From positions 1-64,000 of the forward strand of contig JACRCN010000101.1 of the NCBI GenBank assembly GCA_016219005.1: DNA of 64,000 nucleotides. The letters run 5' to 3'. Positions 55,148 through 60,627 of the stretch are shown here, in pieces (positions within the stretch are counted from its first letter, which is position 1; each line of letters begins with the position of its first letter). The stretch is from Deltaproteobacteria bacterium (GTDB lineage: Bacteria; Desulfobacterota; Desulfobacteria; Desulfobacterales; SpSt-501). The position numbers and the translations under genes are program-made. Under the pieces are notes generated by a model. That model searched no databases. It saw nothing but the letters and a program-made list of their open reading frames with translations, and had not been told where the DNA came from.

Positions 55148-57928
55148 ATGACCGCGGAAGCGAACCCGAACACGATCACGATCAACGGCAGCGAGTTCAC
55201 CTTTCAACCCGGTGAAACCATTCTTGAAGTCGCCCGGCACAACGCTATCGACATTCCGACACTTTGTCATCTGAAGGCGGCGGACCCGACCGGCGCCTGC
55301 CGCGTGTGCCTGGTGGAGGTGCAGGGGGCGCGTTCGCTCGTGGCCTCCTGCGCCATGCCGGCCGCCCCCAGGATGGTGGTCCACACGGAGTCCCCCAAGG
55401 TGGTCACCGCCCGGCGGCTAGTGATCCAGCTGCTGCTGGCGTCGGGAAACCACAACTGCCTCGTGCAGGGTTCCGACGGCCGCAGTTTCGAAGAGTACGC
55501 GGCCCGGTTGCAGCATGCCGGCGGCGGCATCGAGCCCTGCCCGGTGTGGGGCGACTGCCGGCTGCAGGAGCTGGCCTGGCGCTACGGGCTGACCGGCGGT
55601 CGTTTCAGCCCCACCCCGGTCCGCTACCCGCTGGAAGACGTCAACCCCTTCATCGTGCGGGACTTTGCGCGCTGCATCCTTTGCGGCCGCTGCGTCCAGG
55701 CCTGCAACGAGGTCCAGGTGAACCAGGCCATCCACTTCGGCTACCGCGGCGCCAAGAGCAAGATCATCGCGGCCGGCGACCGGCCCTATCGCGACTCGGA
55801 CTGCGTTTTCTGCGGCGAGTGCGTCCAGGCCTGTCCGGTGGGGGCTTTGGTGGAAAAGGATGCCCGCGGAAAGGTCTGGCCGAGAGATGTCCAGAAAACC
55901 GTCCGCACCACCTGCACTTACTGCGGTGTCGGCTGCCAGACGCAGCTGCACATTAAGGACAACGGGGTGGTCAAAATCACCGGCGTGCAGGAAGTGGCGC
56001 CGAACTACGGCAGCCTGTGCGTCAAGGGACGTTTCGGCTTCGATTTCATCGGGTCGTCCGAACGCCTGAAGACTCCGCTGATCCGTGAGAAAGACCGGTT
56101 CCGGGAGGCCACGTGGGAAGAGGCGCTCGATCGGGTGGCACGCCGGCTGGGGGAGATCAAGGCCGCCGACGGGCCGGACAGCATCGCGGTCCTGACCTCT
56201 GCACGCATTACCAACGAGGAGAACTACATCGCCCAAAAGTTCACCCGGGCGGTGCTGCAAACCAACAACATCGACCACTGCGCCCGTCTCTGACACTCCT
56301 CCACTGTGGCCGGTCTGGCCGCAGCCTTCGGCAGCGGGGCGATGACCAACACCATCGGCGACATCGAGCAGTCCGACGTCATTCTGATCGCCGGCTCCAA
56401 CACCACCGAGAATCATCCCGTCATCGCGACCGTCGTCAAGCGCGCCGTGCACCTGAAGGGCAAGACGCTCATCGTGGTCGATCCCCGGCGCATCAAGATC
56501 AGCGACTTTGCCCACACCTGGCTCAGGCCCCACCTGGGAACCGATGTCGCCTGGATCAACGGCATGCTGCACGTGATCATCGCCGAGAACCTGCACTCCA
56601 AAGAATTCGTGGAAAGCCGCACCACGGGCTTCGAGGCGCTCAAGCAGGCCGTTGCCAGATACACCCCGGAGTATGTCGAAGCCATCACGGGCATCCCCGC
56701 CCGGGACCTGACCGAGGCCGCACGCCTCTTTGCAGGGGCTGAGCGCGGCAGCATCCTTTATTGCATGGGGATCACCCAGCACACCACCGGAACCGATAAC
56801 GTCAAGTCGCTCGCCAACCTGGCCATGCTCTGCGGCAACCTGGGGATCGCCGGCGGCGGGGTGAACCCCCTGCGGGGTCAGAACAACGTGCAGGGCGCCT
56901 GCGACATGGGCGGACTGCCGGATGTGTTTTCCGGTTATCAGAAAGTGGCGGACCCCCAGGCCCGCGCGCGCATGCAGGCGGCCTGGAACGTCGACCGTCT
57001 GCCCGAAAAGCCCGGGCTGAAAGTCACCGATATGTTGCCCGCCGCCCACGACGGGACGCTTAAGGCGATGTACATCATCGGCGAAAACCCACTGGTCTCC
57101 GACCCCGACCTGAACCATGCCGAAAAAAGTCTGGGCCATCTCGAATTCCTGGTGGTCCAGGACATCTTCATGACCGAGACCGCCGCGAAGGCGGATGTCG
57201 TGCTGCCCTCGGCCTGCTACGCGGAAAAAGACGGGACCTTTTCCAACACCGAACGTCGGGTTCAGCGCGTGCGCAAGGCGGTCGAACCTCCCGGCGATGC
57301 CCGCGAAGACTGGAAGATTATCTGCGCGATCGCCGGCCGCATGGGCTACCCTATGCCCTACGCCGACAGCCGGGAGATCATGGACGAGCTGCGCCGCGTG
57401 ACGCCGTCCTATGCCGGGATCAGCTACGAACGCATCGAACACGAGGGCATCCACTGGCCCTGTCCGAACGAAGAACATCCGGGAACGCCCATCCTGCACC
57501 GCGAGCAGTTCACCATCGGCCGGGGAATTTTCCACGCCATCGACTGGGTCCCTCCGGCCGAAAGGACCGACGTGGACTTCCCGCTTTATCTCACCACCGG
57601 CCGGGTGCTCTACCAGTATCACACCGGCACGATGACCATGAAGACCGGCGGTTTGAACGAGATCGCGCCGGAGTGCTTCGTCGAGATTTCCGCATTCGAT
57701 GCAAAGGCCAACGGGGTCCAGGAGGGCCATCTCGTCACCATCGCCTCCCGACGGGGGAGCATCCAGGCCCGTATCCGGGTCTCCCCCAAAGCGGTGGCGG
57801 GGACCGTGTTCCTGCCGTTCCACTACGCCCAGGCCGCGGCCAACCGTTTGACCAGCGACGCCCTGGACCCGGTCTGCGGAATCCCCGAGTTCAAGGTCTG
57901 TGCGGTGAAGCTGCAACGGGCCGCGTGA
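55148..57928 (+). CDS. fdhA: Formate dehydrogenase catalytic subunit with selenocysteine
   Basis: Oxidises formate to CO2, or the reverse, at a Mo/W-bis-MGD centre. With TGA 56291-56293 read as Sec382 the product is 926 residues. Domains: [2Fe-2S] ferredoxin (about 5-80; CHLKAADPTGACRVCLVEV), His/Cys 4Fe-4S motif (about 100-120), two 4Fe-4S sites (CILCGRCVQACNEVQ and CVFCGECVQACPVGA), a further 4Fe-4S (CTYCGVGCQTQ), then the molybdopterin core with CARL-U-HSSTVAGLA and the C-terminal MGD cap. The modular N-terminus is that of NAD- or ferredoxin-linked cytoplasmic FdhA/FdsA. No electron-transfer subunit is adjacent. GAAGGGCCT precedes ATG 55148. Confidence 0.95.
56304..56324 (+). promoter_or_regulatory. 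Bacterial SECIS element of fdhA
   Basis: Ten bases after the UGA, CUGUGGCC and GGCCGCAG form an 8-bp stem around the loop GGUCU. The same loop is found in the E. coli fdhF SECIS, where the Gs and U contact SelB. Spacing and loop both support Sec insertion. Confidence 0.9.
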
Positions 57929-58001: not shown

Positions 58002-58039
58002 AAAAAAAGCAGGGCCGGAAATTCGGCCCTGCTTTTTTT
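58002..58039. terminator. Bidirectional terminator between fdhA and the Fe-S selenoprotein
   Basis: A 16-bp stem (AAAAAAAGCAGGGCCG with CGGCCCTGCTTTTTTT) around loop GAAATT, with A and T tracts on both strands. It serves the two convergent genes. Confidence 0.92.
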
Positions 58040-58052
58040 GCTTCGAGCTTTT

Positions 58053-59375
58053 TTATTCTTCCGCTTCCCGCGTCTCCGGCATGAGCAGTTCCGCCAGGTC
58101 CTCCCCGAGGTAGGTGCGTTCGTTCGGGCCGAGGATTCCCATGGCGAGACAGATCATGGTCCAGAGGTGGACCGTGTGATAGTGCCCCTCGAAGTGCTCG
58201 CTCAGGTCGTGGATCTGGGCGTGGCAGTTGTGGCAGGGGGTGATCGCGTAGGTGGCGCCTGTCGCCATGATTTGCTCGAACTTCAGCTTACCGTACTCGC
58301 GGCGCGCTTCCGGGAGCCCCGACTGCAGGAACCCACCGCCGCCGCCGCAGCAGTAGTTGTTGGAGCGGTTGGGGGTCATGTCAACGAAGTTTTCCTCGCC
58401 CACCACCGCTTTGACCACATAGCGCAGATCTTCGGCCACGGGATCGCCGAGACTTTTGCGCACCAGCTGGCAGGGGTCCTGGACTGTGAACTTGACCTTG
58501 AGGTCCTTGTTCCAGTCGGAGTTGACCTTGAGCTTGCCCTCGCGAACCCACTGGGCATAGAGCTGGATGATGCTCATGATTTCGAATTTGTGGGAGATGT
58601 TGAACTTTTTCAGTCCGGCCCGGACTGCGAAGAGTTCGTGCCCTCACTCCGTGTTGAGCCAATATTTGCAGCCAAGGTCGTCCACGGCCTTGGCCTTCAC
58701 CTCCACGATGTGTTTCCACGACTCGGTGTCGGCCATGAACATGCAGTAGTTCTCGGCGGCCCAGCCCTTGGTGCCGTAAGTCCAGTCGGCGCCGGCCAAG
58801 TGCAGGATCTTCCACAGCGGCACCATCTCGTCCGGCTCGGTGACCGGTTCGCGGGAGTTCTGGTTGAGGAAGTACATGGCACCCTGCTTGTTGACGGGCG
58901 CCTGGAGTTCCTCCCAGCCCACTTGGGTATTGCGAACCTCCTCGGCGACGTCTTCGACCACGAACTTGAAGTCCTCCTCGGAGGCACCCATGGCGCTGCA
59001 GGTGTCGTGTTTGAGGGCCATGTTGCAGGAGCCCAGGATCCCCTTGGGGCGCTCATCCCGCGGTCGGCTCCCCCGAACGTTGAACACCAGCTGGGGAATG
59101 TCGATTTTCATAGGGCAGACATAGATGCAGCGCTGGCACATGGTGCACATCCAGGCCCATTCCGATTTCAGGAGTTCCTCGTCCATGCCGAGGGCCGCCA
59201 TGCGCAGGAACTTGCGCGGGTCCATGCCCTCCAGACCGGTGGCCGGGCAGCCGGACGAGCAGGCGCCGCAGGTCAGGCAGAGGTTGAGATTTCCACCATC
59301 GGGCAGCAGCTGCTTCACTTTGTCGATGAACATGCTTTTCTTTTTACCGCTGATTTTGATCGCTTCTTCAGCCAT
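58053..59375 (-). CDS. HdrD/HmcF-like Fe-S protein with selenocysteine in a CCG domain
   Basis: Two reading frames in the same phase are separated by one TGA (58646-58644). Read as Sec244 the product is 440 residues. The N-terminal ferredoxin part has LCLTCGACSSGCPATG and WMCTMCQRCIYVCP (about 32-90). Two cysteine-rich CCG-type domains follow, as in heterodisulfide reductase subunits: the first holds CKYWLNTE-U-GHELFAVRAG, where the usual residue is Cys; the second has NYCCGGGGGFLQSG and TPCHNCHAQIHDL. CCG domains bind the non-cubane 4Fe-4S cluster of the disulfide site, so Sec probably ligates or tunes it. The protein is cytoplasmic or peripheral. The electron partner is unknown. Confidence 0.88.
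58611..58627 (-). promoter_or_regulatory. Candidate SECIS element of the HdrD-like gene
   Basis: On the minus strand, 16 bases after the UGA, CAGUCCG and CGGACUG form a perfect 7-bp stem with loop GGC, or a 6-bp stem with loop GGGCC. The G-rich tip fits bacterial SECIS elements; the spacing is slightly longer than in E. coli. Confidence 0.65.
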
Positions 59376-59484
59376 TCCAATTAACCTCCCCTGGAATTAT
59401 CAAGGCCAGTTGCTGGTATAAAGTCTGAACATACTAAATTGATGCAAAAACACAAGCGAAAAATGAAGGCGTGCGGGCCGGCCG

Positions 59485-60462
59485 TCAAACCGTAAACACC
59501 GAAGAGCCGGTGGTCTTGCGTCCTTCCAGGTCCCGGTGGGCGCGCGGGGCTTCGGCGAGCGGGTAGGTCTGGCGCACCGCGACCGTGACCGCCCCCTTCT
59601 GAACCACTTCGAAGAGGTCCCGGGCATGGGCCAGGAGGTCCTCCCGCCGGGCGGTGTAGGTCATGAGCGTGGGGCGGGTCAGGAAAAGCGATCCTTTTTG
59701 CGCCAGCAAAGCGGGATCGAAGAGTCCAATCGGCCCGGCGGACTGGCCGAAGGACACCAGCATGCCCATCGGCCGCAGACAGTCGAGGGACTTCAGGAAC
59801 GTGGTCTGGCCGACCGAATCGTACACCACGTCGACGCCCTTGCCGCCCGTGATGTCCTTGACGCGGGCGGCGAAGTCCTCCTTCGTGTAGAGAATCGGGT
59901 GGTGGCAGCCGTGGGCTTTGGCGATCTCGGCTTTTTCGGGGCTGCCCACCGTTCCGATCACGGTCGCGCCCAGATGCCGGGCCCATTGGCAGACGATGAG
60001 GCCGACGCCGCCGGCAGCAGCATGGATCAGCAGAGTCGTGCCGGGACCGACCGGCCAGCAGCCTTTCAAGAGATACCGCGCCGTCATGCCCTGGAGCATC
60101 ATGGCGGCGGCCTGCAGAGCGGATATGCCGGAGGGAAGCTGCACCAGCCGATGGGCCGGAATACGGCGCTTCTCGGCGTAGGCCCCGGGCGGAACGCCGG
60201 CATAGGCCACGCGGTCGCCCACGGCCACCTCGACAACCTCCGGGCCGATGGCCTCAACCACCCCGGCGGCCTCCAGGCCGGGGGTGGCCGGGAGGGTGGG
60301 CAGGGGGTAGAGGCCTGAGCGATGGTAGACGTCGATGTAGTTCAGGCCGACGGCCTCGTGACGCACGAGGGCCTCGCCGGGGCCGGGAGTTCCGGGGTCA
60401 ACATCTTCCCATCGCAGCACCTCGGGCCCGCCATGCTGATGGATGCGGATGGCTTTGACCAT
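59485..60462 (-). CDS. Zinc-independent MDR-family quinone oxidoreductase
   Basis: An NADPH:quinone reductase-like medium-chain dehydrogenase of 325 residues. The GroES-like domain has HQHGGPEVLRWEDVD and GLNYIDVYHRSGLYP. The Rossmann domain has the cofactor motif HAAAGGVGLIVCQWARHLGA. The catalytic zinc ligands of alcohol dehydrogenases are absent, as in QorA. GGAGGATAATTAT precedes ATG 60462. It is the first gene downstream (in transcription) of the FAD selenoprotein but 166 bp away, so an operon is uncertain. Confidence 0.9.
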   Translation of the reverse strand: MVKAIRIHQHGGPEVLRWEDVDPGTPGPGEALVRHEAVGLNYIDVYHRSGLYPLPTLPATPGLEAAGVVEAIGPEVVEVAVGDRVAYAGVPPGAYAEKRRIPAHRLVQLPSGISALQAAAMMLQGMTARYLLKGCWPVGPGTTLLIHAAAGGVGLIVCQWARHLGATVIGTVGSPEKAEIAKAHGCHHPILYTKEDFAARVKDITGGKGVDVVYDSVGQTTFLKSLDCLRPMGMLVSFGQSAGPIGLFDPALLAQKGSLFLTRPTLMTYTARREDLLAHARDLFEVVQKGAVTVAVRQTYPLAEAPRAHRDLEGRKTTGSSVFTV

Positions 60463-60627
60463 ATAATTATCCTCCTGCAATTCTCAAATTATTTGCATCC
60501 GCGCCCACTTGCGGCGCCGGTCGTCAACTTCGCCGTAGAATATCTGCTCCCATGGCCCAAAGTCAAGCCTGCCCCGGGTTACGGCGACCACCACCTCCCG
60601 GCCCATGACCCGGCGTGTCGCGTGAGT

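Follow-up and report, generated by a model that had tools for sequence, protein, structure and literature searches.

The window, by which we mean the whole stretch of 64,000 nucleotides that was analysed, carries on its minus strand a gene for a HdrD-like Fe-S protein, and comparative evidence strongly supports that UGA at codon 244 of this gene is decoded as selenocysteine (Sec). The gene belongs to a selenoprotein family that has been published before; what can be sharpened is the view of which chemical role the Sec can have. Judged from sequences and a structural model, it is somewhat probable that Sec244 provides a lone selenolate facing a single non-cubane cluster, which would be fed by two cubane clusters. 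If this is true, the selenolate and the non-cubane cluster together would represent an active site of a new type.

Gene structure and domain layout

The minus-strand frame from 59375 to 58053 has 440 codons and, when the codons were re-read, was interrupted by one TGA only. This confirms the original prediction, which had placed a single TGA within one long frame at the cysteine of an E-C-G-H motif; the strand is to be given as minus. The best 80 of 260 relatives show 73-93% identity to the product, and most of them match it over the full length. The features of the gene and its surroundings are the following.

58053..59375, minus strand: gene of an hdrD-like Fe-S oxidoreductase ("GlpC-type"), 440 aa including Sec244
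59385..59391, minus strand: probable ribosome-binding site (GGGGAGG), 9 nt upstream of the ATG, read from the sequence
59375-59373, minus strand: start codon ATG, read from the sequence
59103..59288, minus strand: two [4Fe-4S] motifs, HdrC-like (Pfam Fer4 families, conservation, HdrC match)
58488..58880, minus strand: first CCG-type domain, residues 166-296 (fold match to HdrB chains, conservation)
58644..58646, minus strand: in-frame TGA, codon 244, the Sec244 codon, in the motif NTE-U-GH
58611..58627, minus strand: bSECIS-like hairpin, 7 bp, loop GGC, loop start 24 nt after the UGA
58212..58487, minus strand: second CCG domain, residues 297-388 (PF02754, full ligand set CX39CCX37CXXC)
58002..58039, minus strand: 16-bp terminator-like hairpin between the hdrD-like gene and the convergent fdhA (fold z -6.8)

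Pfam models placed ferredoxin-type motifs at about residues 30-91 and the CCG domain once, as PF02754 at 297-388; the first CCG-type domain (166-296) gave no Pfam CCG match. The cysteines of the [4Fe-4S] motifs are C33, C36, C39 and C43 for one, and C77, C80, C83 and C87 for the other.

An AlphaFold model was made with 34 sequences and with U entered as C (pLDDT 83.5, pTM 0.86). Its residues 165/166 to 425-431 align to whole HdrB chains, which points to two CCG-type domains in the fold. By VIA-align the best structural match of the model was EtfD (Z 24.5), and HdrB gave Z 20.4-21.3. Other fold matches were Helicobacter 3kwl (Z 20.4, 339 residues) and LutA 9a6l (Z 19.6), while CODH, racemases and periplasmic binding proteins had Z < 8 and were taken as common folds. 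A HdrD-like Fe-S protein, as had been predicted from the DNA, is supported at the level of the fold and of the succession of domains, in which two [4Fe-4S] motifs precede two of CCG type.

Decoding of UGA codon 244

Relatives were collected by a scan of genome contigs, and the best 80 of the 260 found were taken. They are mostly labelled as Desulfobacterales or other deltaproteobacteria, and some just as "Proteobacteria". TGA was present at codon 244 in 80/80 of them, among which are Desulfonema magnum (L051) and Desulfospira joergensenii (L083). The site was also read in 93 further loci, including four from the own genome, 29 from a search of the phylum and 60 fetched ones, with rows without a stop deliberately favoured; it held U in 64, C in 29 and no other residue. 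Six of the 93 were repeats of a gene, leaving 87 unique loci with 62 U and 25 C, numbers which describe a chosen set and are not frequencies. Some of the 62 duplicate genes among the 80 (in the tree, L058 is the same as L130, and L036 the same as L125).

Three weaker matches of the own genome were excluded from this count and showed other contexts aligned at the site: C in SPHCYH (L102), C in SPHCLN (L112) and S (L111). In the checked rows with an inner TAA or TAG (L167-L170, L172-L174, L188) the residue at the site is U or C, and their extra stops lie outside the alignment or 176-181 codons downstream of the site; this check leaves out rows of G225, G324 and G285:C122.

The G-tipped hairpin that had been proposed at a suitable distance after the TGA was borne out. 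The hairpin (58627-58611) has a minimum free energy of -15.9 kcal/mol and z -2.43, equalled by 4/200 shuffles, and the 57-nt stretch including the UGA reaches just z -1.61, equalled by 13/200 shuffles. For comparison among genes we used a criterion of our own, made after viewing the folds and distinct from the published bSECISearch: a stem of >=4 bp, a loop 3-14 nt long whose first base comes 14-38 nt after the UGA, and a G in loop bases 1-2. A bSECIS-like hairpin by this self-made criterion follows the UGA in 81/81 near Sec genes (window included) and 62/62 far Sec genes, together 143/143, and was found in 5/25 Cys genes; the background at other in-frame positions is 25-27%.

Covariation was measured in 50 sequences chosen from the 143 Sec genes. 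There were 46 double-change cells against 17.4 in shuffled data (0/500 shuffles as high), and 89.7% of the cells were paired, falling to at most 51.7% once the partner was slid. Of the five measures of covariation, two gave weak results, namely the pairs altered on both sides (5/7 stem pairs, 32/500 shuffles as high) and further pair types (23/500 shuffles as high). The stem codons V251, R252, G254 and L255 take ranks 1-4 of 333 informative codons for synonymous conservation in 81 sequences. The folding energy lies within the best 5% windows of the own gene in 18/81 near Sec, 5/62 far Sec and 1/25 Cys genes, a test in which the site is misplaced in at least one Cys row (L165). The folding energy is weak alone; the hairpin argument is carried by position and covariation.

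The TGA might also be a true stop, which means a pseudogene, a sequencing error or two genes. The stop codon itself is all that speaks for this, together with an internal ATG at 58577. However, the same codon is kept throughout the best 80 relatives, the peptide between the TGA and the internal ATG is conserved, and the hairpin covaries. Homologues do not split into two genes at this point either: the frame of the 25 Cys homologues is open through the site, and the 50 aligned Sec sequences have no gap downstream of it. We therefore rejected a true stop, pseudogene or split gene as hardly credible.

The source genome has the genes that had been named for a check of the Sec machinery: selA, selB, selC and selD are all present. 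We identified selA on contig C55, two selB (C89:33315-35207 and C100:12853-14739), tRNA-Sec directly before the C100 selB, and two selD (C100:18958 and C79:14164), each with its own TGA. A second match of the tRNA-Sec model (C4:411-495) had 47.1 bits, barely above the cut-off of 47. With a completeness of 98.5% and a contamination of 4.7% for the source assembly, one selB/selD set could be foreign. The presence of two selB and two selD, with one set beside tRNA-Sec, is either a real duplication or contamination.

As a discriminator of Sec and Cys genomes selB was useless, since 64/66 chosen genomes were over the cut-off, including 54/56 with the TGA form and 10/10 taken as Cys-only from the rows listed. 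The two TGA-form genomes below the cut-off, G265 and G031, are assemblies of about 740 and about 290 contigs.

From the comparative evidence, SelB and tRNA-Sec would act with the downstream hairpin to decode UGA 244 as Sec. The predicted Sec at the E-C-G-H cysteine is matched with TGA in all of the best 80 relatives, with U or C alone in the 87 further loci, with the hairpin and with the Sec machinery. An annotation taking the UGA as a stop would split such genes in two.

Paralogues and exchange of Sec and Cys

The own genome encodes a Cys paralogue on contig C73, with ECGH at the site and 65% identity, beside the gene for MvhD (FlpD). It also has a second Sec paralogue (L213:7400-8533, equal to C11:32399-33532) with PEUGH and 34-36% identity, which stands behind genes with FAD-type and Fer4-FlpD domains. 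An HmcF-type protein (L100) and a TmcB-type protein (L101) of the same genome have Cys at the site, in ECGH. An assignment of L101 as DsrK from its motif was ruled out, as L101 proved to be TmcB-like and L100 HmcF-like.

In a quick tree built from 121 selected rows, 96 with Sec and 25 with Cys, there are at least 13 undirected label changes, of which 12 are forced by well-supported branches; the tree carries a long-branch warning. It means that Sec and Cys swap at least 12-13 times and that Sec is not indispensable. Two Cys forms, L145 and L148 (genomes G243 and G201), have ECAH and not ECGH, and lie on a fairly long branch within a Sec clade; a recent Sec-to-Cys change with a relaxed loop is possible.

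Readthrough could mainly be a selenium-dependent switch between the Sec enzyme and the C73 Cys paralogue. Such a switch is suggested by the presence of this paralogue at 65% identity in one and the same genome, and PMC2702500 suggests replacement under selenium limitation in its organism. But the Sec and Cys copies differ in their neighbours, the Cys copy adjoining the MvhD gene, and we consider a switch as the main role very improbable.

Gene neighbourhood

Upstream on the same strand, after a gap of 109 bp, is a NADPH:quinone reductase gene at 59485-60480 (371.4 bits, cut-off 348). On the other side is the convergent fdhA on the plus strand, whose frame ends at 57928. It scored 867 bits with TIGR01591 against a cut-off of 666, in a profile scan started at 55151, which is not a start codon. 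An in-frame TGA of fdhA is at 56291-56293 in the context HCARLUHSSTV, and the fold downstream of it is unremarkable (z -0.40, single fold). Two Sec genes, hdrD-like and fdhA, thus end at one shared terminator-like hairpin. A pattern scan for this hairpin gave one site, where the shuffled region gives a mean of 2.1 by that loose pattern.

Neighbours were counted in those 44 of the best 80 relatives which had at least 4 kb on both sides. HdrA/MvhD genes were within 4.5 kb on the same strand in 25/44 and absent nearby in 19/44; MetV and MetF were also near in 16/44, and MvhG or MvhA in 7/44, all within the 25, in a count where one representative was named per neighbour cluster, so that single loci may be mislabelled. 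At L029:1355-9057 and 15 further loci, genes for HdrA, MvhD, the Sec HdrD-like protein, MetV and MetF are clustered in Desulfobacterales-type genomes. This suggests that the Sec module belongs to a methylene-THF reductase complex at these loci. Already described are syntrophic sulfate reducers that have HdrABC next to metF, and the MetFV-HdrABC of Moorella (PMC10553843).

The window copy has no link with HdrA, MvhD or MetVF, its neighbours being the quinone reductase gene and the convergent fdhA. Such an unlinked copy would pair with HdrA-type partners encoded elsewhere.

Proposed active site and role of Sec244

Conservation was examined in an alignment of 20 diverse family members. In the first CCG-type domain, residue 244 alone is of cysteine type throughout (20/20). 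Cys was found at C211 in 8/20, at C236 in 13/20 and at residue 247 in 0/20, which leaves no second first-domain ligand common to the family. In the second CCG domain, C302, C342, C343, C381 and C384 are Cys in 20/20. H246 is kept in 19/20, and the ferredoxin cysteines vary little or not at all. Within the clade of the window, C117 and C211 do not vary, and C236 hardly does.

By profile alignment to EtfD, U244 corresponds to Cys581, G245 to Pro582, H246 to His583 and residue 247 to Cys584. According to PMC13083937, Cys503, Cys538, Cys581 and Cys584 of EtfD hold a linear [3Fe-4S] cluster (D1), His583 completes the non-cubane cluster of the second domain, and this histidine renders the cluster non-catalytic. 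With U-G-H aligned to C581-P-H583, this loop is expected to sit above the cluster of the second domain.

Sec244 could be a permanent ligand of a non-cubane or linear cluster in the first domain, paired with the second-domain cluster as in HdrB. It does align with Cys581, a ligand of D1, and C117, C211 and the near-invariant C236 of the window's clade could be further ligands. Yet across the diverse members Cys is kept at C211 in under half, at C236 in 13 of 20, and never at the residue matching EtfD Cys584. In a first domain with a lone invariant Cys/Sec, the Sec is unlikely to be a ligand of paired non-cubane clusters, the role which the original prediction had given to it and for which we found no support; on the whole we regard a permanent first-domain cluster as unlikely.

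The arrangement that we favour is a lone selenolate at a single cluster. The protein would be a soluble HdrC+HdrB-type module, in which, as the ligands and the HdrB/EtfD fold suggest, two cubane [4Fe-4S] clusters would hand electrons on to a single non-cubane [4Fe-4S] cluster bound in the second CCG domain. The first CCG-type domain would build no cluster, and its U-G-H loop would pack over the single cluster, with H246 at the position of the cluster-ligating histidine of EtfD and Sec244 two residues earlier. The selenolate of Sec244 may then attack its substrate (a disulfide, trisulfide or persulfide), with the electrons coming from the cluster; alternatively, Sec244 may reversibly bind the open iron of the cluster.

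It may also be that Sec244 is non-catalytic and that the protein only relays electrons, a role proposed for EtfD, with Sec just tuning or protecting the site. EtfD is presented as an electron wire whose cluster is fully ligated and takes no part in catalysis (PMC13083937), and because the EtfD histidine makes its cluster non-catalytic, H246 could equally indicate such a relay. The repeated exchange of Sec and Cys is in line with it. On the other side, Cys or Sec is retained in 87/87 further and 80/80 near loci though the other ligands of the domain are lost, and Sec is found in 96/121 tree rows, which were a chosen set. We consider a pure relay doubtful, though far from negligible.

In the wider sense, we tentatively suggest as a possibility that in this family the two-cluster site of HdrB has been cut to one non-cubane cluster plus a selenol (U-G-H) for disulfide, trisulfide or persulfide chemistry, and that in part of the Desulfobacterales this module replaces HdrBC in HdrA-MvhD-MetVF complexes.

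Comparison with known families

Reference 12 of selenoprotein reviews is reportedly Kryukov and Gladyshev 2004. A "Fe-S oxidoreductase-like protein" (PTHR43551) with the motif UGH is listed as a prokaryotic selenoprotein in PMC13188914, and the same family appears as COG0247 (GlpC), there without a motif, in PMC9312934. We liken our protein to this family (GlpC, COG0247, PTHR43551) by the UGH motif common to both and by the descriptions. The family is reported as deltaproteobacterial and in operons with hdrA and frhD (PMC1794560), which resembles the HdrA/MvhD genes beside 25/44 loci here, whereas the window copy is unlinked. In a marine deltaproteobacterium, too, a Fe-S oxidoreductase is named as a Sec protein (PMC8318568). 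For Desulfococcus multivorans, PMC5109826 lists five Sec genes, none of the Fe-S oxidoreductase-like family, which argues against every relative having it.

The subgroup had been expected to be rare compared with FdhA. In a search of 395 genomes of the phylum, 112 had a match at E <= 1e-60, and at least 94 of the 395 (at least 94 of the 112 with a match) had an in-frame TGA inside it by hand count, the TGA position being verified just in the 93-locus set. Such genes are common in the phylum, and the family is a published one; FdhA is outside this count. Thus the earlier interpretation stands for the Sec at ECGH and for the HdrD-like protein, but not for the paired non-cubane ligand or for the rarity.

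The name GlpC misleads, because the protein scored 30.4 bits with TIGR03379 (anaerobic GlpC), far from the curated cut-off of 279.9. HdrD4 of Desulfobacterium autotrophicum HRM2 is described in PMC2702500 as Sec-containing, and by this description it is likewise a soluble HdrC+HdrB fusion with Sec. The same paper places the HRM2 HdrD type closest to Firmicutes proteins, which argues against orthology.

Among the titles listed by literature searches on DsrK structures, on selenocysteine with DsrK or HdrD, and on selenocysteine with noncubane or CCG, none dealt with a CCG domain carrying Sec. The passages covered likewise mention neither a MetVF setting for a Sec HdrD-like module nor the single-selenol argument, and this does not prove their absence from print. 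Searches of PDB sequences gave no DsrK structure among the matches listed, and no DsrK was identified in the source genome.

HdrB has two non-cubane clusters (PMC13083937), while in the window protein the ligand set of the second domain alone is complete; of the two complete CCG motifs that mark the paired clusters of HdrB/HdrD, only the second was found. EtfD, with a linear [3Fe-4S] and a non-cubane cluster (same source), is a membrane protein, whereas the window protein is predicted to be soluble. The useful point of the comparison is that this CCG domain is degenerate, with the Sec as its lone invariant cysteine-type residue, and that the Sec stands two residues before the place where EtfD has a ligand of its non-cubane cluster.

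The best curated-family scores were 177.7 bits for HmcF, 152.8 for TmcB and 118.3 for DsrK, far below the cut-offs of 750, 735 and 400, respectively. The domain order of these three is as in the window protein, and the HmcF-type and TmcB-type proteins of the own genome differ from it in having Cys in place of the Sec. As they carry Cys at this site, the Sec form could reveal the role of the E-C-G-H cysteine there, and 77Se in the Sec form would be a spectroscopic probe for a wider group of sulfate-reducer proteins.
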